From contig WFPF01000043.1 in NCBI GenBank assembly GCA_015487695.1, positions 1 through 34,985 on the forward strand: a stretch of DNA of 34,985 bases, written 5' to 3'. The DNA is from Chitinophagales bacterium. GTDB taxonomy: Bacteria > Bacteroidota > Bacteroidia > Chitinophagales > S012-47. Positions 10,104 through 20,510 of this stretch are shown in pieces. Numbering within the stretch: the stretch's first letter is position 1; each line of letters starts with the position of its first letter. The notes under the pieces were generated by a model. It saw only the letters and a program-made list of their open reading frames with translations. It was not told the origin of the DNA and ran no database searches. The position numbers and the translations under genes were made by a program.

Positions 10104-10958
10104 GTGAATGAAGAAAAAAACGGGTATATGGGAAAAGTAACGCATGCTATTTATATCGGAGTGATGACACTGATTGTGCTGGTCGTAACTGCGTGGCTGG
10201 CCTACACAGGATACAGCTACTACGAACTCCCCCTCGAAGAGCGCTTTTACCATCCGCAGTACCACTGGTTCAGGCCGGCCGGGCCGCTTGGACACGGGCT
10301 GGGCATCATTGGCACCTTTCTTATTCTTTTCGGTGTCGTCTTTTATATCGCCCGCAAGCGCTACGGATTTATGGAGCGCTACCTCCGCCTGAAACATGTG
10401 CTCGAGTTCCACATCTTCCTCTGCGTGCTCGGGCCCATTCTTGTCCTGTTTCATACCACCTTCAAATTTGGCGGCATGGTCTCGATTGCTTTCTGGAGCA
10501 TGGTTGCCGTGGTTTTGAGCGGGGTCGTTGGCCGTTTTATTTACATTCAGATTCCGCGTACGATTGAAGGACGGGCACTCAGCCTGGCAGAAGTCAACAA
10601 AGCCAAAGAAGAAATAGCACGTGAGCTTCGTCAGATGGAAGGCCTGGAAAGCTCCACGCTTGACCTCATTCTGAATGATGACGGACGGCAGCGCGGCTAT
10701 TTCGCCAGAAAACTTCAGCTCTCCAGAGTCAGGCGTGAGTTGAGACACAAACACATTGACCGGAGCAGGCGCAGGGCCATCATCGAGTTGGTCAAACAGG
10801 AAATGTCGCTGGCTGGAAAGGTAAGCCGCCTGCGACAAATGCAAAATCTTTTTAAATACTGGCACGTGGTGCATTTGCCTTTTGCCATTATCATGTTGGT
10901 CATTGTGGTGATCCATGTGGTGATCACCGTGATGCTGGGCTATAGATGGATCTTCTGA
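10104..10958 (+). CDS. Multi-pass membrane protein, candidate b-type (di-heme) cytochrome / quinol-interacting subunit (start may be ATG at 10128)
   Basis: About 5 hydrophobic TM segments with histidines placed in or near helices (GPLGHGLG; LKHVLEFHIFLCVLGPILVLFHTTF; YWHVVHLPFAIIMLVIVVIHVVITV); co-directional with and overlapping the flavoprotein gene. Confidence 0.65.
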   Translation: MNEEKNGYMGKVTHAIYIGVMTLIVLVVTAWLAYTGYSYYELPLEERFYHPQYHWFRPAGPLGHGLGIIGTFLILFGVVFYIARKRYGFMERYLRLKHVLEFHIFLCVLGPILVLFHTTFKFGGMVSIAFWSMVAVVLSGVVGRFIYIQIPRTIEGRALSLAEVNKAKEEIARELRQMEGLESSTLDLILNDDGRQRGYFARKLQLSRVRRELRHKHIDRSRRRAIIELVKQEMSLAGKVSRLRQMQNLFKYWHVVHLPFAIIMLVIVVIHVVITVMLGYRWIF

Positions 10959-12301
10959 TGAATATACTGACACAGGAAATAGTGATTTACGGAGTGCTTG
11001 GCCTCTTTTGCCTGGCCATCATCTGGATTTATGTACGCAAAGGTCAAAAAGCTTCGGCCCGTGTGCGCGAGAAGGTGGACATCGCGAAAAGGGAAGGGCG
11101 TTTTGAGCCCCTTTCCCTGCATCCCTACATCGACCTCGACACCTGCATCGGCAGCGGGGCCTGCGTAAAAGCCTGCCCGGAAAAAGATATCATCGGTATT
11201 ATCGACAACAAAGCCACAGTGATCAATGCCAGCAGTTGCATCGGACATGGTGCCTGTTTTCATGCCTGCCCGGTCGAAGCCATCTCACTGCGGATCGGCA
11301 CGGAGAAACGGGGGGTCGAGCTGCCGCATGTGAAGCCGAACTACGAAACCAACGTCAGGGGTATTTACATTGCCGGAGAACTGGGCGGTATGGGCCTGAT
11401 CAAAAACAGCGTGGAGCAGGGAAAACAAGCTGTGGAGAATATTGCGAAGAGCGGGAAAGAGCCCAAAGAAGGTGTGCTTGACCTTATCATTGTCGGGGCA
11501 GGGCCGGCCGGCATATCGGCTTCGCTGATGGCCAAAAAACTGAGGTTGAGTTTTAAAATATTCGAACAGGACAGCCTCGGAGGAGCCGTCTACACCTTTC
11601 CGCGTTCCAAAATTGTCATGACCAAGCCCATGGACCTGCCGCTGTATGGAAAGGTCAAACTTTATGAAAGTTCGAAAGACGAGTTGCTCAATCTCTGGAA
11701 CGAGGTGCTGAGTAAAAATAAAATAGAGATACAGGAGCGCAGCAAAGTGGAGAAGATCACTTTTGCAGACAACGAGGTTTTTAAGGTCATTCTCGCCAAC
11801 GGTGAGGAATACCTGGCCAATCATGTGCTTGTCGCCATCGGACGAAGGGGCTCGCCCCGAAAACTGAATATCCCGGGTGAAAATCTGCCCAAGGTCGCCT
11901 ATCGCCTGATCGAACCCGAACGCATCAGCGGGAAAAAGATCATTGTAGTGGGTGGTGGCGACTCGGCCGTAGAGTCTGCCATGCTCCTGATGGATCAGAA
12001 TGAGGTCACACTCTCCTATCGGAAAGCGCAGTTTGCACGCATCAAAGCCCGTAACCGCGAGAAAATAGAAGAGGCCATGCAAGAGGAAAAATTAAAAGTT
12101 ATTTTCAACTCCAATCTCGTTCGCATCAGGGAGGATGAGGTGGAACTGAAAATAAAGAACGGGGATCAAGAAGAGCTTGTAACCCTTGAAAATGACCTTG
12201 TCTATATTTTTGCAGGAGGAGAATTGCCCATAAAATTTCTGCAGAATGCAGGCATTGAGATCACAAAGAAATTCGGAACCATTGTCAAAAAGCACAAATA
12301 G
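10946..12301 (+). CDS. Membrane-anchored ferredoxin-flavoprotein oxidoreductase (TrxR/YpdA-like FAD/NAD(P) domain)
   Basis: N-terminal TM; CIGSGACVKACP and CIGHGACFHACP ferredoxin-like motifs; FAD motif LIIVGAGPAGISASL; NAD(P) motif IIVVGGGDSAVESAMLL. An alternative start at 10958 gives an ATGA overlap with the upstream stop. Confidence 0.88.
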   Translation: MDLLMNILTQEIVIYGVLGLFCLAIIWIYVRKGQKASARVREKVDIAKREGRFEPLSLHPYIDLDTCIGSGACVKACPEKDIIGIIDNKATVINASSCIGHGACFHACPVEAISLRIGTEKRGVELPHVKPNYETNVRGIYIAGELGGMGLIKNSVEQGKQAVENIAKSGKEPKEGVLDLIIVGAGPAGISASLMAKKLRLSFKIFEQDSLGGAVYTFPRSKIVMTKPMDLPLYGKVKLYESSKDELLNLWNEVLSKNKIEIQERSKVEKITFADNEVFKVILANGEEYLANHVLVAIGRRGSPRKLNIPGENLPKVAYRLIEPERISGKKIIVVGGGDSAVESAMLLMDQNEVTLSYRKAQFARIKARNREKIEEAMQEEKLKVIFNSNLVRIREDEVELKIKNGDQEELVTLENDLVYIFAGGELPIKFLQNAGIEITKKFGTIVKKHK

Positions 12302-13913
12302 AGCGCCATTGAAAACGCTGAAAGAAATCATCTTTTGTATTGCCCTGCTTGCCATGGGGACGCTTCAGGCCCAGATATCGCCCGGAAGCCTGAGTACGGC
12401 CCATGCCGACCTGGAAGGCGTATCGAATTGCACAAAGTGCCACGAACTGGGAAACCAGGTACCCGATTACAAGTGCCTCGATTGCCATAAGGAGATAGCC
12501 GCCCTGAACGAGCAGAACCGGGGCTATCACGTCTCAAAAGAAGTGAAATCGAAACGCTGCACAGACTGCCACAACGAGCACCATGGCCGCAAATTTCAGC
12601 TTATTCGTTTCGATACGGTCCGCTTCGACCATAAGCTCACGGGCTATACCCTTGAAGGCAAGCACGAGCGCATTGACTGCCGTGATTGCCACAAGCCCGA
12701 TTACATTGATGATCCCGACATACGCGAAAGAAGCAAAAGCTATCTCGGCCTGGATGCCGAGTGCCTGACCTGTCATGAGGATTACCATCAGGGTGAACTC
12801 TCAGAGGACTGCAGCTCGTGCCACAGCAATTTTGAAGATTTCAGGCCCGCTGACGGATTTGATCACAACGATGCAGACTTCAAACTGCGGGGGGCCCACA
12901 AAAAGCTGGACTGCGAAAAATGCCATAAAAAAAGCACACGCAACGGGAATGAATACCAGGAATTTACGGGTATAAAATTTGAGCGCTGTATCGATTGTCA
13001 CGAAGATGAGCACAACGGACGTTTCGGAAAGGACTGCAGCAAGTGCCACACCGAAAGCAGTTTCCTGGAGCTGAAGTCCATGAACCGCTTCAACCATGAC
13101 AAGACCCGTTTTCCGTTGCGCGGCCAGCACGTGGGCGTAGACTGCAAAGCCTGTCATAAGGGTAAGTTTACCGCGGCTATTCGCCACAACGAGTGCAAAG
13201 ATTGCCATGACGACTATCACGAGGGTGAATTCAACGAGGAAGCCTCCTCACCCGACTGCAAAGATTGCCACACGCTGGACAAGCCTTTCGGGTTCACAAG
13301 TTTTGGAATTGAAGAACACAATGAAGGTCATTTCAAACTCGAAGGGGCCCATCTGGCCACCCCCTGTTTTGCCTGCCACCTGAAAGACGACAGGTGGACA
13401 TTCAGAGACATCGGGGAGGAATGCAAAGCATGCCATGAGGATGTGCACGAAGGAAAAATAAGTGAGAAATACTACCCCGAAGGCAATTGTGCTTCCTGTC
13501 ACAATCCAGGCCGCTGGAACGATGTGAAATTTGACCACGACAAGACCGGCTGGCCGCTGAAAGGAGAGCATGACGGGCTTTCCTGCCGAAAATGCCACTT
13601 TGAAAGCAGCGCAGACGGGGAAACGGAAATACAAAAATTCTCATTACTTTCGAAAGAATGCAGTCAGTGCCACAATAATAAGCACGGAAATCAATTTGAA
13701 GAAGGAGGAAAAACCGACTGCCTGAAATGCCACAGTGAATCCGGTGACTGGAAAGCCGACTTGTTTGATCACAGTGCTACACGCTTTCCGCTGGAGGGCA
13801 AACATGCCGAAGTAGCGTGTGATGCCTGCCACAAGGCCAAAAAAGACGAGAACGGAGTGGAAATAATTGAGTATAAAATAAAGCGATTTGAATGTATAGA
13901 TTGTCATCGTTAA
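12246..13913 (+). CDS. 20-heme c-type cytochrome made of tandem triheme c7-like modules (start may be TTG at 12309, just before the signal peptide)
   Basis: 20 CXXCH motifs counted by hand; signal peptide LKTLKEIIFCIALLAMGTLQA; repeating F-D/N-H...G-x-H...CxxCH...CxxCHxDxHxG...CxxCH. Confidence 0.95.
   Translation: MQALRSQRNSEPLSKSTNRAPLKTLKEIIFCIALLAMGTLQAQISPGSLSTAHADLEGVSNCTKCHELGNQVPDYKCLDCHKEIAALNEQNRGYHVSKEVKSKRCTDCHNEHHGRKFQLIRFDTVRFDHKLTGYTLEGKHERIDCRDCHKPDYIDDPDIRERSKSYLGLDAECLTCHEDYHQGELSEDCSSCHSNFEDFRPADGFDHNDADFKLRGAHKKLDCEKCHKKSTRNGNEYQEFTGIKFERCIDCHEDEHNGRFGKDCSKCHTESSFLELKSMNRFNHDKTRFPLRGQHVGVDCKACHKGKFTAAIRHNECKDCHDDYHEGEFNEEASSPDCKDCHTLDKPFGFTSFGIEEHNEGHFKLEGAHLATPCFACHLKDDRWTFRDIGEECKACHEDVHEGKISEKYYPEGNCASCHNPGRWNDVKFDHDKTGWPLKGEHDGLSCRKCHFESSADGETEIQKFSLLSKECSQCHNNKHGNQFEEGGKTDCLKCHSESGDWKADLFDHSATRFPLEGKHAEVACDACHKAKKDENGVEIIEYKIKRFECIDCHR
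12624..13913 (+). repeat. Protein-level tandem repeat: five complete and one truncated triheme modules
   Basis: Module starts (Phe codon of F-D/N-H, or Ile of IEEH) at 12624, 12858, 13089, 13308, 13530, 13764; module lengths 78, 77, 73, 74, 78 aa, then a partial module with two hemes. Confidence 0.85.
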
Positions 13914-14908
13914 TCTTCTTTCTGCTGCTGGCGGGAAATGCATGGGCGCAAAACCCCCACGGTCCTGACCTCAAGATCGACTGCAAAGCCTGCCACACTT
14001 CGGGCAGCTGGAAAATCGACCGCGAACAGCTCAGCTTTAACCACGACACCGTGGGATTTGAGTTGGAATACCGCCACAATGAAATAGATTGCCGCGAGTG
14101 CCATACGACCCTGGTTTTTAACGAAGTGGAGAGCAATTGTGTATCCTGTCACGATGATGTGCACAGCATGTCGGTGGGCGATGATTGCGCAAGATGCCAT
14201 ACTTCAAAAAACTGGCTGGTAGATAAGATACCCGAGATCCATGAAGAAAACGGCTTCCCGCTCGTAGGTGCCCATTTCTCTCTGGCCTGTGTCGATTGTC
14301 ATGATTCCGAAACCGGCTTGCGCTGGGAGCGCCTGGGGAATGATTGTTTCAATTGCCATGACGACACCTACTACAGTACCACGGCACCCAATCACGAAGC
14401 TTCCGGCTTTTCAACGGATTGTATCCAATGCCACGATCCCCTCTCCGAAAGCTGGACCGGAAGCGGTAATTTTCATTTCTTCTTTCCGCTTACCGATGGA
14501 CATGACATTGCAGACTGCACAGCCTGCCACAAAGGAAGCAGCTACTCCGACATTTCTCCGGAATGCATATCCTGCCATCAGAGCGATTACAACAATGCGC
14601 AGTCTGTGGATCATGCGGGTTTGAATTTCAGCACGGATTGCACCCAGTGCCATGGCATGGGACCGGGATGGAGCCCGGCCAACTTTGACGATCATGACGG
14701 AAACTTCTTCCCCATATACTCCGGAAAACATCAGGGAACATGGAACACTTGCACGGATTGCCACCTGAATGTCAACGATTACTCGGAATTCAGTTGCATC
14801 ATTTGCCACGACAACCAAAGCGAACTGGCCAACGACCACGATGAGGTAAGCGGTTATACGTACAGCAGTGATGCATGCTACTCGTGCCACCCAAAAGGAG
14901 ATGAGTAA
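13892..14908 (+). CDS. 13-heme c-type cytochrome, module-related to the upstream 20-heme protein
   Basis: 13 CXXCH motifs counted by hand; signal peptide MYRLSSLIFFLLLAGNAWA|Q; overlaps the upstream cytochrome gene by 22 nt in another frame. Confidence 0.95.
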   Translation: MYRLSSLIFFLLLAGNAWAQNPHGPDLKIDCKACHTSGSWKIDREQLSFNHDTVGFELEYRHNEIDCRECHTTLVFNEVESNCVSCHDDVHSMSVGDDCARCHTSKNWLVDKIPEIHEENGFPLVGAHFSLACVDCHDSETGLRWERLGNDCFNCHDDTYYSTTAPNHEASGFSTDCIQCHDPLSESWTGSGNFHFFFPLTDGHDIADCTACHKGSSYSDISPECISCHQSDYNNAQSVDHAGLNFSTDCTQCHGMGPGWSPANFDDHDGNFFPIYSGKHQGTWNTCTDCHLNVNDYSEFSCIICHDNQSELANDHDEVSGYTYSSDACYSCHPKGDE

Positions 14909-14939
14909 TTTATTAGCGGGCACTTGAAGATTGGAGTTT

Positions 14940-16580
14940 ATGAAGTCTGTATTTTTTATGCTTTCCTTTTTCCTGATGGTCATGACTGTGAAGGCACAGA
15001 GTGGTGAAAAGACGGAGGATGGAGAAGTTACATTTATTACATCAGAGAATGTATATGTTCGTTTTTCCAGCACGGAGAACATCCGTATCGGTGATACGCT
15101 CCTGCAAAATGTAGGTAGCGGGTTGAAGCCCTGCCTTGTCGTGACCCAAAAGTCTTCTACTTCCTGTGTTTCCTATCCCCTGCCCTCCTGCTCTCCGAAA
15201 AAAGGAGACAAAGTCGTCCACCGCTACACCGTCAGCGAAACGGCATCCGCAGCCATGGAAAACGAAGCGGCAGCAGATTCCACAGAAAGCCAGGCCGGGC
15301 AAAGCAGCATTGGGAATAAAGAGCAGGAATCGGAGAAAGCCCGGGAAAGCTTTGAAGAAAAACCCTATTTCACAGAGCGCATCCGGGGGCGTGTATCCCT
15401 CGCTTCCTATAGCAATATCTCGTCAAGCAACAATGACGGCCACCGGGCCATGGCCCGTTTTTACCTCTCGGCCAGGCACATCGGCAACAGCCGCTGGTCG
15501 GTAGAAAGTTATGCCGCCTATCTGCAAAATTTCGTGCAGGGCGAACGGCCACAGGGTTATCGCACTTCATTTATGAGGGTCTACAATATGGCCGTGCGAT
15601 ATGATGCCGACAGCTCATTTTCGGTACTCCTCGGGCGCAGAATCAATCGCAGGATGTCTTCGCTGGGAGCCATTGACGGGCTCCAGGCCGAGAAACATTT
15701 CGGCCGCTTTTATGCGGGTGCCATAGCCGGTTTCCGACCCGATATCAGCAATTACGGTTTTAATTCGAAGCTCCTTCAGTATGGTGCGTATCTCGGATTG
15801 GGCAGCTCCGGACGAGGTTCCCGCAATGAAAGCACCATCGGTGTGCTGGAACAGAGAAACGGAGGACACATTGACAGACGCTACGCCTATCTGCAGCACT
15901 CGGCCACCCTTATGAAAGACCTTCATCTTTTCAGTTCGGCTGAGCTTGATTTCTATCGCAACGTAAACGGAGCGGCAAGCAGCGCACCCCGGCTGACCAA
16001 TTTCTATCTCTCGATGCGCTACAGGATCAATCGGAAATGGTCGGCCCATATCTCATACGATGCCCGCAAAAGGGTGATCTATTATGAAAGCATAAAAACG
16101 GAAGTAGAACGGCTGCTTGACAATGACATATCGAGAAACGGGCTGCGGCTGGGGCTGAGATATCGTCCGAACCGAAAGATTTCCACGGGTCTCAGCTACA
16201 GCAAACGCTTCCAGGCCGATCGTCTGAACCGCTCTGATAATGTGAATGCCTATCTAAGGTTTTCAGATCTGGCAGGCATTGGCGGCAGCCTCTTTATTGC
16301 ATACAACTTCAACCAGTCTATCTACCTGCAGAGCAATATCGCTTCAATCCGTTTCACCCACTCCATAGTAGAGAATAAGGCAAATGCCTCGTTCTACTAC
16401 CGCTATGTCAATTACAAATACCTGAGCTTTGAACGCAGCAATCCGGGACAGCATTATTTCGGAGTTCAGAGCAGTACGAAATTAAGCGGCAGCCTGAGCC
16501 TGGGATTGCTGGGCGAGTTTTCACTCCGGAACGGCCAAAACAATGTTCGTGTTAATACAAGCTTGATTAAACGATTTTAG
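14940..16580 (+). CDS. Outer-membrane beta-barrel protein with an N-terminal periplasmic domain (porin candidate; ORF track start 14931 is a TTG)
   Basis: Signal peptide MKSVFFMLSFFLMVMTVKA; small N-terminal domain plus charged linker; then alternating-pattern strands with aromatic girdles and terminal Phe (...NNVRVNTSLIKRF). Confidence 0.7.
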   Translation: MKSVFFMLSFFLMVMTVKAQSGEKTEDGEVTFITSENVYVRFSSTENIRIGDTLLQNVGSGLKPCLVVTQKSSTSCVSYPLPSCSPKKGDKVVHRYTVSETASAAMENEAAADSTESQAGQSSIGNKEQESEKARESFEEKPYFTERIRGRVSLASYSNISSSNNDGHRAMARFYLSARHIGNSRWSVESYAAYLQNFVQGERPQGYRTSFMRVYNMAVRYDADSSFSVLLGRRINRRMSSLGAIDGLQAEKHFGRFYAGAIAGFRPDISNYGFNSKLLQYGAYLGLGSSGRGSRNESTIGVLEQRNGGHIDRRYAYLQHSATLMKDLHLFSSAELDFYRNVNGAASSAPRLTNFYLSMRYRINRKWSAHISYDARKRVIYYESIKTEVERLLDNDISRNGLRLGLRYRPNRKISTGLSYSKRFQADRLNRSDNVNAYLRFSDLAGIGGSLFIAYNFNQSIYLQSNIASIRFTHSIVENKANASFYYRYVNYKYLSFERSNPGQHYFGVQSSTKLSGSLSLGLLGEFSLRNGQNNVRVNTSLIKRF

Positions 16581-16594
16581 AAAGACCACAAGAA

Positions 16595-17386
16595 ATGAAA
16601 AGAAACATTAAAGTCATTTATCTCAGCCTGGCTCTGATTGCAATTGCAGCCTGCAACGGAAAGCCAAAGGAAATAGCTCCGAGCAAGAGTGACCCGGGCA
16701 GCAGCGGCATATTCGAAAGCGAAAACCCTTCCGGCAGCATGGAAGGAGATATCCCTTCGGATGTGCATCGAGTTGTTGTTGAGGAAGTGCTTCCTACGGA
16801 CCAGTATCAGTTTCTGAGGGTCAGGGAAGGAAATGACGAGTACTGGATAGCCACCATGATACAGGGCATCGAGGTGGGAAAAAGTTATTATTTCAAAAAC
16901 GGAGTGCTCAAAACCGATTACGAGAACAAGGAATATCAGCGTGTCTTCAAACGCATGTATCTGGTCTCAAACATCGTGGAAGCCGGACATGGCAGCAAAA
17001 TGCAGGGAGCCGGCAGCGGGATGAAAAGCAACGTGGAATCCAATGCAAAATCCGGTATACACGGCATTCCCCGAAAATACGGACGCATAGAAATCGAAGG
17101 GTCTCTTCCCATTGCGGAGCTGATAGCCCATCCCGAAAAGTATGAAGGCAAACGCATTCAGATTTCAGGCGAGTGCGTAAAGCTTAATCCGAATATCATG
17201 GGCCGCAACTGGATTCACCTGAAAGACGGAAGCAAAGATGACTACGACCTGGTCATCACCTCCCAGGATATATGCCCCGAAGGCGAGGTCGCCACTTTTG
17301 AGGGCAGCGTGGCACTGAACAAAGACTTTGGAGCCGGCTATCGATATGAGCTCATTGTAGAAGACGGAAAACTAATCAGGAAATAA
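16595..17386 (+). CDS. Lipoprotein with a C-terminal OB-fold-like domain
   Basis: Lipobox-type signal MKRNIKVIYLSLALIAIAAC; C-terminal EKYEGKRIQISGECVKLNPNIMGRNWIHLKDGS...LVITSQDICPEGEVATFEGSVALNKDFGAGYRYELIVEDGK resembles the NrfJ-like/OB-fold proteins found near multiheme cytochromes. Confidence 0.65.
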   Translation: MKRNIKVIYLSLALIAIAACNGKPKEIAPSKSDPGSSGIFESENPSGSMEGDIPSDVHRVVVEEVLPTDQYQFLRVREGNDEYWIATMIQGIEVGKSYYFKNGVLKTDYENKEYQRVFKRMYLVSNIVEAGHGSKMQGAGSGMKSNVESNAKSGIHGIPRKYGRIEIEGSLPIAELIAHPEKYEGKRIQISGECVKLNPNIMGRNWIHLKDGSKDDYDLVITSQDICPEGEVATFEGSVALNKDFGAGYRYELIVEDGKLIRK

Positions 17387-17393
17387 GAAGATC

Positions 17394-20300
17394 ATGAAGG
17401 GGAAAGAGATCATCGAAAGGCTCAGGAGCATCCTGAGGCCCATGTTTACCACACGCGCAGCCGGCATCTACATCCTGCTATTTGCAGTAAGTATTGCCGT
17501 TGCCACTTTTATCGAAAACGACTACGGCACTTCGGCCGCTCAGAAGCTGGTTTACAAAGCCCGCTGGTTCGAACTGCTGCTTTTGCTTTTTTCCATTACA
17601 ATCGTGGTCAATATTGTCCGTTTCCGCATGGTCCGGCAAAAGAAGTGGGCCGTACTCACTTTTCACCTGGCCATGATTGTCATATTGATCGGAGCCGGAA
17701 TTACGCGCTATTTTGGCAACGAGGGCATGATGCACATCCGGGAGGGCGAAAGCTCCAATCGCTTTCTCTCGGCCGACACCTGGCTCAAATTTGAAGCCTT
17801 CCGTGACGGAACCCGGTTCGAATTTAACGAACCTGTACTTTTTGCCTCGCTGGGGCCCAATCGCTTCCATGAATCTTACCGTCTGGGCGATGATTTCATC
17901 GAAGTGAGGCTGAAGGAATTTATACCCAACCCCGTGCGCAGCCTCGAAAAGGACGAAAATGGCACGGCCATATTGAAAATCGTCTTTGGTGGAAGCAACG
18001 GCAGGTCCGAGTACTATCTGGCCCGGGGAGAAGTGAAGACCTTTGGCAATGTCCTCTTCAATTTTAGCGAAAAGGAGGTTCCCGGATCTGTCCGCATTCT
18101 CTACAGAAATGATACCCTGCTGATTGAGCCCGAACAGGTGATGGTCAGGCAGGTGATGGCTACACGGGAGATCGACACCCTCCATCCGGCTGACGGGCCT
18201 TCCCCGCTTCGGCTCCGTGCACTTTATACAGACGGGTCCCATCGTTTTGTTTTTGGGGATTTCAACCCCAAAGCCCGTATCAAACTGCAAAGCGGAGGAT
18301 CGAAGATGCAAAACGGCAGCGAAGCAGCCCTGCGCCTCGAAGTACGCATCAATGACGAAGTACACGATATTCTCGTCTACGGAAGCCGCGGGCTGCCGGG
18401 CACAGCTGCCGTCATTCATTCAGGCGACCTGAATCTGGCTGTTTCCTACGGTTCCAAATATTTTGAACTGCCCTTCAGGATCAAACTCTACGATTTTATT
18501 CTGGAACGCTATCCCGGCACCAACAGCGCAGCCTCCTATGCCAGCGAAGTGCAACTGATCGACCCGCGGAAAAACTACAGCAAAGATTACCGCATCTACA
18601 TGAACCATATCCTGAATTATGACGGATACCGCTTCTTCCAGTCGTCCTACGATCGCGATGAGAAAGGCACCTACCTGAGTGTCAATCACGACTACTGGGG
18701 CACTTTCTTTTCATACCTCGGGTACATCCTGCTTACGCTGGGGCTTATCCTCACGCTTTTCAGCCGAAAATCACGTTTCTATCAACTCTCGCAAATGATC
18801 AAACGACTCAAGTCGGCCGCTCCCGTGCTGTTGCTTTCTATAGCGCTTCTTGGCAACGGCTTGGATGCCTCTGCGCAGAAAGTAGTGGAAAGCAAACTTG
18901 ATGTCGTTTCAAAAGATCATGCCGGGCTCTTCAGCCGTATGATTGTGCAGGACTTCAAAGGGCGTCTCAAACCGATGCACACGCTCACGCGCGAACTCAT
19001 GCGCAAGGTCTACCGAAAAGAGAAATTCCGGGGCCTCACTGCCGACCAGGTAGTGCTCAGCATGTTTGCCAGTCCGCAAAGCTGGTATGAGGTGCCGCTT
19101 ATCAAAGTAGGGGCCAACAACGGTATCAGAGAACTGCTCGGTATCACAGGCGATTATGCGGCCTATGGAGACTTTTTTGATGAGCAGGGACACTACAAGC
19201 TGGATGAAGAAGTGAGCCGGGCTTTCAATATGCAGCCCGTTAACCGCGGTACGCATGAAAAGCAATTGATCAAGGTGGACGAACGGGTGAACATCGTAAA
19301 CATGATCTTTTCCGGCCGGATATTCCGGATTGTTCCCCTGATTGACGATCCGAATCATACCTGGGTCGGAGCCCGCTCGCATGGCAACGAGTCGGAATCG
19401 GAACTGGCCACCCGCTTCTTCTCGGCCTATCAGAGCGCCCTGCACGATGCGATGCACTCCGGTGATTACCGATTGCCCGATCAGCTGCTTGAAGAGCTTA
19501 AAAAATATCAGTATAAACACGATGCCGGACTCATTCCACCGGAATCCAAACTGCAGGCCGAGATTCTTCTCAATAACCTGCATGTGTTTGACCGGCTGGC
19601 CCTTTTCTATGGCCTTCTGGGGATGACCTTCCTGATATTGCTGTTTGTGACAGTATTCAAACCCACGCTGAACGTGCGAGTGATCAGCCGCATTCTGATT
19701 GTCTTGGTTCTGATTGGCTTTCTTTTTCACACCACAGGGCTGGGCCTTCGATGGTACATCTCGGGCCGGGCACCATGGAGCAACGGTTACGAGTCGATGA
19801 TCTACATCGCCTGGACCACCACTCTGGCCGGTCTGATCTTCACACGCAAATCCCCGGGTGGCATGGCTGCTACCATGGTATTGGCCTCCACCATTCTGCT
19901 GATCGCCATGCTTAGCTATCTCGATCCCCAGATCACACCGCTGGTGCCCGTACTCCGGTCCTATTGGCTGACCATTCACGTTTCGCTGGAGGCAGGGAGT
20001 TACGGATTCCTTATGCTCGGGGCCATTCTCGGGCTGATCAATCTGATCCTGATGATTTTCCTGACGGAGAGAAACAAAGAACACCTCAAAAGAATAATCC
20101 GGGAAATGTCTTACCTCAGCGAGATGACCATCACGGGAGGCCTGATCATGCTCAGCATCGGAACCTATCTCGGTGGAGTGTGGGCCAATGAATCCTGGGG
20201 CCGTTATTGGGGATGGGATGCCAAAGAAACCTGGGCGCTGGTGACCATTCTGGTTTATGCATTTATATTGCACATGCGGCTCATCCCGAAGATGAAAGGA

Positions 20301-20510
20301 TTTTATACCTACAATCTTGCCACCATTTTCGGATTGTCTTCGGTGATTATGACCTACTACGGAGTGAACTACTACCTTTCGGGTCTTCATTCCTACGCTG
20401 CCGGTGATCCCGTGCCGATTCCCTCCTGGGTCTACATCAGCGTAGCCAGCATCACGGCCATTTGCATACTGGCTTATTGGCGAAAGAAAAAGGTGATAGG
20501 AAGATTCTGA
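17394..20510 (+). CDS. ccsBA: Fused System II cytochrome c biogenesis protein (ResB/CcsB + CcsA)
   Basis: N-terminal ResB-like TMs and periplasmic domain; C-terminal CcsA WWD-type motif VWANESWGRYWGWDAKETWALVTILVYAFILHMRL; 1038 aa fusion. Confidence 0.92.
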   Translation: MKGKEIIERLRSILRPMFTTRAAGIYILLFAVSIAVATFIENDYGTSAAQKLVYKARWFELLLLLFSITIVVNIVRFRMVRQKKWAVLTFHLAMIVILIGAGITRYFGNEGMMHIREGESSNRFLSADTWLKFEAFRDGTRFEFNEPVLFASLGPNRFHESYRLGDDFIEVRLKEFIPNPVRSLEKDENGTAILKIVFGGSNGRSEYYLARGEVKTFGNVLFNFSEKEVPGSVRILYRNDTLLIEPEQVMVRQVMATREIDTLHPADGPSPLRLRALYTDGSHRFVFGDFNPKARIKLQSGGSKMQNGSEAALRLEVRINDEVHDILVYGSRGLPGTAAVIHSGDLNLAVSYGSKYFELPFRIKLYDFILERYPGTNSAASYASEVQLIDPRKNYSKDYRIYMNHILNYDGYRFFQSSYDRDEKGTYLSVNHDYWGTFFSYLGYILLTLGLILTLFSRKSRFYQLSQMIKRLKSAAPVLLLSIALLGNGLDASAQKVVESKLDVVSKDHAGLFSRMIVQDFKGRLKPMHTLTRELMRKVYRKEKFRGLTADQVVLSMFASPQSWYEVPLIKVGANNGIRELLGITGDYAAYGDFFDEQGHYKLDEEVSRAFNMQPVNRGTHEKQLIKVDERVNIVNMIFSGRIFRIVPLIDDPNHTWVGARSHGNESESELATRFFSAYQSALHDAMHSGDYRLPDQLLEELKKYQYKHDAGLIPPESKLQAEILLNNLHVFDRLALFYGLLGMTFLILLFVTVFKPTLNVRVISRILIVLVLIGFLFHTTGLGLRWYISGRAPWSNGYESMIYIAWTTTLAGLIFTRKSPGGMAATMVLASTILLIAMLSYLDPQITPLVPVLRSYWLTIHVSLEAGSYGFLMLGAILGLINLILMIFLTERNKEHLKRIIREMSYLSEMTITGGLIMLSIGTYLGGVWANESWGRYWGWDAKETWALVTILVYAFILHMRLIPKMKGFYTYNLATIFGLSSVIMTYYGVNYYLSGLHSYAAGDPVPIPSWVYISVASITAICILAYWRKKKVIGRF

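Follow-up and report, generated by a model that had tools for sequence, protein, structure and literature searches.

A c7-type triheme module apparently divided between two overlapping cytochrome genes in Bacteroidota and Ignavibacteriota

To our knowledge, little is known beyond Geobacter and Shewanella of how electrons are handed over across a fixed joint between different multiheme cytochromes. The window analysed here, 34,985 nucleotides of contig WFPF01000043.1 from a Chitinophagales bacterium, raises the question of whether two adjacent cytochrome genes encode the parts of one triheme module. Gene 1 (12246..13913, on the forward strand like all features below) encodes an exported 20-heme cytochrome, as indicated by its motif count and a match to Pfam Cytochrome_C7. 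Its start is uncertain, being either ATG 12246 or a TTG near 12276, the latter common to a sister genome. The 20 CxxCH motifs form an N-terminal three-heme unit, five triheme units and a sixth unit limited to hemes I and II. An internal unit reads F-x-H, G-x-H, CxxCH (heme I), a linker, CxxCH (heme II), a nearby His and CxxCH (heme III). The sixth, incomplete module (13734..13910) contains two distal His residues, heme I (13818-13832) and heme II (13893-13907), followed by Arg and the stop. Thus, as a previous sequence-only reading of this locus had stated, gene 1 ends at the second heme of its sixth unit, one residue after the motif (...RFECIDCHR, with the stop ending at 13913).

Gene 2 (13892..14908) starts with an ATG at 13892 in a frame different from that of gene 1 and encodes an exported cytochrome with 13 CxxCH motifs, arranged as a third-heme segment followed by four triheme units. 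The predicted signal peptide MYRLSSLIFFLLLAGNAWA (13892..13948) contains a hydrophobic stretch that is present in all relatives, and the predicted mature protein begins with QNPHGPDLKIDCKACH. After the signal peptide, the head of gene 2 consists of a distal His (13958-13960), seven residues and a CxxCH motif (CKACH, 13982-13996); this stretch (13949..13996) represents the candidate third-heme segment of a composite module. On the DNA the order of hemes I-II-III is intact, and the putative signal peptide sits where heme II would give way to the third-heme segment, parting the two halves of the composite module.

The two genes overlap by 22 nucleotides in different frames (13892..13913). The gene 2 start codon (13892-13894) takes its A from the third position of a Glu codon and its TG from the codon for the first Cys in the final heme motif of gene 1. 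Scanning a genome collection with gene 1 yielded 80 loci, the best 80 of 159 relatives, and 72 sets were tabulated, the window included; some of them are near-duplicates and hence not independent. In 61 of the 72 loci the ATG of gene 2 falls, in the same phase, within the last heme motif of gene 1. The base preceding the nested Cys codon is A in 61/61 cases, as compared to 21% at internal motifs. Most further loci inspected likewise show the nesting, the exceptions being L084, L145 and L146, and L127 employs GTG. In the window, the CxxCH codons at 13893-13907 are read in two frames and force Leu-Ser or Leu-Pro at residues 4-5 of gene 2. Moreover, the XX residues of the last gene 1 motif are biased (ID, EN, EA) in overlapping loci and not in separate ones.

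In the remaining 11 loci the genes do not overlap and are separated by gaps of 47 to 1838 nucleotides. In all of these, gene 1 still stops one residue past heme II and gene 2 starts with xPHG...CxxCH. Ends fixed by the overlap on the DNA alone would be expected to drift after separation; as both truncated ends are kept, that overlap is an insufficient explanation for them. A joint at the protein level is suggested chiefly by this persistence of the ends, which is not proof, since additional gene-2-like paralogs bear the PHG head as well and could use it for another purpose. In the three Paludibacter-type separated loci examined (L048:9590-11126, L031:9533-11170 and L058:4721-6027), a leucine-rich-repeat-like (BspA-like) protein is encoded between gene 1 and gene 2.

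The heme counts follow the same rule. Gene 1 contains 20 motifs in 57 loci and 23 in 15, corresponding to 3n+2 in 72/72, and throughout the tabulated sets its stop falls a few residues beyond the last motif. A count of 3n+1 CxxCH motifs was observed in 47 of 60 complete gene 2 proteins (range 13 to 70), and six more reach it once CX3-4CH sites are counted; the remaining exceptions comprise one copy with a decayed motif and six copies of a Paludibacteraceae clade without the last heme. Raw counts of 24, 30, 35 and 42 hemes were explained by CX3-4CH sites or the one decayed motif. Neither window protein contains a CX3-4CH site. With the Paludibacteraceae clade set aside, no module end is incomplete except the pair facing one another at the junction. 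The head of gene 2 carries His at position -8 (spacing 8) in 71/72 loci and PH in 70/72; L039:5716-6174 is the sole relative of the 72 whose head lacks the PHG distal His, with CxxCH kept. Gene 2 can become very large: L024:9581-14797, L085:9782-14992 and L021:4478-9094 encode 70, 70 and 61 heme motifs, respectively, in single open reading frames of up to 1739 amino acids that retain 3n+1.

The fit of the two halves was scored with a profile of the internal units of gene 1, which was trained on half of the loci and tested on the remaining ones. Internal units of gene 1 in the test loci reached medians of 70-80 bits, the tail of gene 1 alone 41 bits, and the tail joined to the first heme segment of gene 2 58 bits. 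The best completions of the tail were obtained with hemes 4, 10 and 1 of gene 2. As these are third-position hemes, heme 1 of gene 2 belongs to the third-position class. At the level of sequence, the earlier proposal that gene 2 supplies the missing third of the module is borne out, and the recurrence of the pattern in 72 loci makes it more than chance. From the junction outward, the gene 2 units scored 59.7, 48.0, 35.0 and 18.0 bits; this falling likeness to gene 1 would fit one array that once crossed the junction, and is suggestive only, the profile being trained on gene 1. By contrast with the 70-80 bits of the internal units, the N-terminal three hemes of gene 1 scored a median of 21.7 bits as a module and constitute a different unit. 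The previous count of eleven complete modules was therefore overstated, and the 33 hemes correspond to ten modules, the composite one included, and a further triheme unit of another kind. The likeness in His-to-Cys spacing between the gene 2 head and internal units, on which the sequence-only reading had also relied, holds in part: the spacing of 8 recurs in units 1-2 of gene 1, whereas units 3-5 mostly have 12-14.

Taken together, these results suggest an array of c7-like triheme modules distributed over two chains that are exported separately, a near-constant chain encoded by gene 1 (20 or 23 hemes) and a variable chain encoded by gene 2 (13 to 70 hemes). The break would lie within a module, between the second heme and the third-heme segment with its distal His and CxxCH. 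The N-terminal third-heme segment of gene 2 would pack against the pair of hemes at the C-terminus of gene 1, so that a full module is restored and both chains are linked end to end in a single uninterrupted heme chain. That each half-module supplies in trans what the other lacks, with the chains docked end to end following an old fission, is what we infer as slightly more probable than not; the 3n+2 and 3n+1 heme counts, the restriction of incomplete ends to the facing pair outside one clade, the His at -8, the truncated ends in separated loci, the nested start, the third-position score and the synteny speak for docking. We are a little more hesitant, with doubt slightly prevailing, about the fuller proposal of a two-chain wire whose joint is a shared folding module, where an exchangeable chain of 13-70 hemes would plug into the chain of 20-23 hemes and the nested start would couple their synthesis. 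Some observations count against docking. The same head occurs on gene-2-like paralogs that have no gene 1 of their own close by, so that it may be a family trait. In addition, L039 is devoid of the PHG, and the six gene 2 tails of the Paludibacteraceae clade likewise stop after heme II, an end for which no partner is known.

The nearest solved protein to gene 1 is GSU1996 (PDB 3ov0, E 6e-9, aligned motif for motif; also 3oue), the dodecaheme c7-type nanowire cytochrome of Geobacter sulfurreducens, which likewise consists of tandem triheme domains with a linear heme chain. GSU1996 is one chain with four complete triheme domains, each containing one His-Met heme (PMC10138318). The window proteins share with c7-type triheme polymers the tandem triheme units and the two His residues before the first motif. 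However, they differ from GSU1996 in that the candidate ligand of the third heme is the His after motif II and that no Met is invariant, which does not agree with a His-Met heme per domain. They differ further in that all domains of GSU1996 lie in one polypeptide, while here one unit is divided between two genes. With the model TIGR04257 ('nanowire_3heme'), gene 1 scored 36.0 bits, below the cut-off of 40, and gene 2 was not listed. The alignment places our unit on the triheme domains of GSU1996, each of which holds hemes I, III and IV together, and this would count for a shared module.

Gene 1 contains exactly 20 invariant non-motif His residues, the distal His candidates, for 20 hemes (56 sequences), and gene 2 contains 13 such residues, invariant or nearly so, for 13 hemes. 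As the His residues are balanced within each chain (20/20 and 13/13), neither chain needs the other for ligation, and the balanced counts argue against net heme ligation in trans. By analogy with c7 cytochromes, the His pair before heme I may serve hemes I and II, and the His before heme III may serve heme III. With each heme served in cis, the composite module would be a matter of packing and not of ligation in trans. Completion in trans, which had been put forward as one of two explanations of the split module, is strengthened by the survival of the truncated ends in separated loci and weakened by the ligand balance within each chain. AlphaFold2 models of the single chains reached pLDDT 78.9 and pTM 0.40 for gene 1 and pLDDT 63.1 and pTM 0.36 for gene 2, the latter being a poor model, and fold searches gave no significant match.

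The ligand balance is also what makes the foremost alternative worth weighing, in which the ends merely reflect the register of the repeat. The repeat would then fold in the order third-first-second, each chain would be complete, no composite module would result from the old fission, and the ends would be kept for folding in cis. The same head on gene-2-like paralogs and the lack of a unique register in tandem arrays also fit this explanation. However, homology to c7 cytochromes puts hemes I, II and III of the unit in one domain, and gene 2 nearly always ends on a complete I-II-III unit, leaving only the facing ends incomplete. We regard the register explanation as unlikely, though it deserves to be taken seriously.

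A joint between heme proteins could also involve ligation across the interface. In the OmcS, OmcE and OmcZ filaments the heme chain is continued across subunit borders, as we propose here; in OmcS and OmcE a His of one subunit ligates a heme of its neighbour, which is not the case in OmcZ (PMC9473688). Correspondingly, His23 of gene 2 might act as the distal ligand of the last heme of gene 1, with the other ligands shifted. The head His is nearly invariant and close to the N-terminus, and OmcS and OmcE do use the His of the adjacent subunit (PMC9473688). Nevertheless, we consider this arrangement improbable, as gene 1 has no ligand deficit and gene 2 no surplus, the His preceding the last motif would by c7 analogy serve that motif, and OmcZ shows docking without a shared ligand (PMC9473688). 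In contrast to these homopolymers, two different chains face each other here, and the ligand counts balance in cis.

Somewhat more improbable still is a homopolymer, in which the head of gene 2 would dock mainly on another gene 2 chain and not on gene 1. Gene 2 of the Paludibacteraceae clade prompts this idea: in L031, L033, L041, L045, L058 and L064 it encodes 12 hemes, with a third-heme head and a tail stopping after heme II. Such a protein is self-complementary end to end, and judged by these ends it might homopolymerise. Most gene 2 proteins, however, close on a full module with a CHPxG tail and consequently offer no open end. Finally, one long gene interrupted by an assembly or sequencing frameshift, or read by programmed frameshifting, would be in line with the overlap in different frames and has next to no probability, since the same split with a gene 2 signal peptide recurs in many independent assemblies from two phyla, isolates included; this conservation rules out an assembly frameshift.

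As to the origin of the two half-modules whose docking we favour, 396 genomes of the phylum were sampled; 41 of them, representing 33 genera, carry gene 1. The split is kept across two phyla, Bacteroidota and Ignavibacteriota, and the operon also occurs in the isolates Maribacter sp. PR1, Hanstruepera neustonica and Mariniphaga sediminis. The gene 1 tree indicates three changes between the overlapping and the separate arrangement: the separated loci form one Paludibacteraceae clade and two Saprospiraceae rows, which are separate derived groups, and the Ignavibacteriota rows have overlapping genes. Fused single-gene homologs, which the sequence-only reading had proposed to look for, were not present in the 80 loci (the best 80 of 159 relatives), and no fusion of gene 1 and gene 2 was found among the 41 genomes with gene 1, where the longest gene 1 frame has 680 amino acids. 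The lack of fused homologs together with the gene 1 tree indicates that the split is old. Gene fission, the other explanation put forward earlier, agrees with the intact order on the DNA and with the gene-1-like character of the gene 2 units near the junction, and does not find a counterpart in a fused homolog. The reading that fits best is that a c7-type triheme array underwent fission long ago, in which case the ancestral fusion would be deduced from the present-day genes. Fission and completion in trans are both partly supported and, as far as the sequences tell, compatible with each other.

Both cytochrome genes belong to a conserved operon, for which neighbours were counted over 80 loci, several of them truncated. 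A membrane protein with invariant His residues, a probable b-type cytochrome (10104..10958; 71/80 loci), is encoded directly upstream in most related operons and has no match in Pfam, NCBIfam or the PDB. It is followed by a membrane-anchored oxidoreductase with two [4Fe-4S] sites and a flavin/NAD(P) domain (10946..12301; 75/80 loci). In the window (10104-12301), the cytochrome b gene overlaps the FeS/flavin gene, which in turn overlaps gene 1, resulting in a chain of four overlapping genes. Downstream of gene 2 lie a probable outer-membrane beta-barrel protein (14931..16580; 64/80 loci), a conserved lipoprotein (16595..17386; 27/80 loci) without a Pfam or NCBIfam match, and a CcsBA-like protein for covalent heme attachment (17394..20510), assigned by its ResB and Cytochrom_C_asm domain matches. 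Many homologs of the barrel end in -RF and one has a weak Porin_4 match; the window barrel gave no convincing match to a known porin family, and a PDB search with it was empty.

We read this operon as an envelope electron conduit, with direction and location deduced from the neighbours. The FeS/flavin protein and the cytochrome b in the inner membrane would feed electrons into the conduit; these would traverse the periplasm along gene 1 and be handed to gene 2 near the outer-membrane barrel. If the downstream gene does encode such a barrel, the arrangement would resemble that of porin-cytochrome complexes (MtrAB, OmbB-OmaB-OmcB), where multiheme cytochromes have their genes beside that of a barrel; it differs from them in the window barrel's lack of a convincing porin family match. 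The DmsE/MtrA model (TIGR03508) gave 42.3 bits on gene 1, far below its cut-off of 192.2.

A link to extracellular electron transfer has been drawn for multiheme clusters of Bacteroidetes and Ignavibacteria (PMC7399161, PMC8258643). The Bacteroidetes_1 cluster from a bioanode, with six multiheme genes matching only hypothetical proteins, is of this Bacteroidetes/Ignavibacteria type and tied to extracellular electron transfer; the likeness to our operon is one of description only, and the accessible part of that report does not mention a split module (PMC8258643). Giant secreted cytochromes with very many heme motifs, themselves undescribed, have been noted in wastewater Saprospiraceae and other Bacteroidota; in contrast to the present work, the accessible part of that report gives motif counts only and no split module, overlap or partner gene (PMC11495043). 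In the literature searched, mostly without subscription papers, we found no description of a split module or nested start codon, and the widespread operon of Bacteroidota and Ignavibacteriota is likewise undescribed there. If the proposed joint is real, a module common to two chains would act as a built-in plug. The meeting of 3n+2 with 3n+1 would then provide a sequence-level rule to predict partners in genomes, and a test of how heteromeric wires assemble. Extra gene-2-like cytochromes with an SPHG/NPHG...CxxCH head adjoin the operon in L021, L055, L062, L065, L075, L076 and L087, and judging from this head they are possibly exchangeable partners of gene 1.
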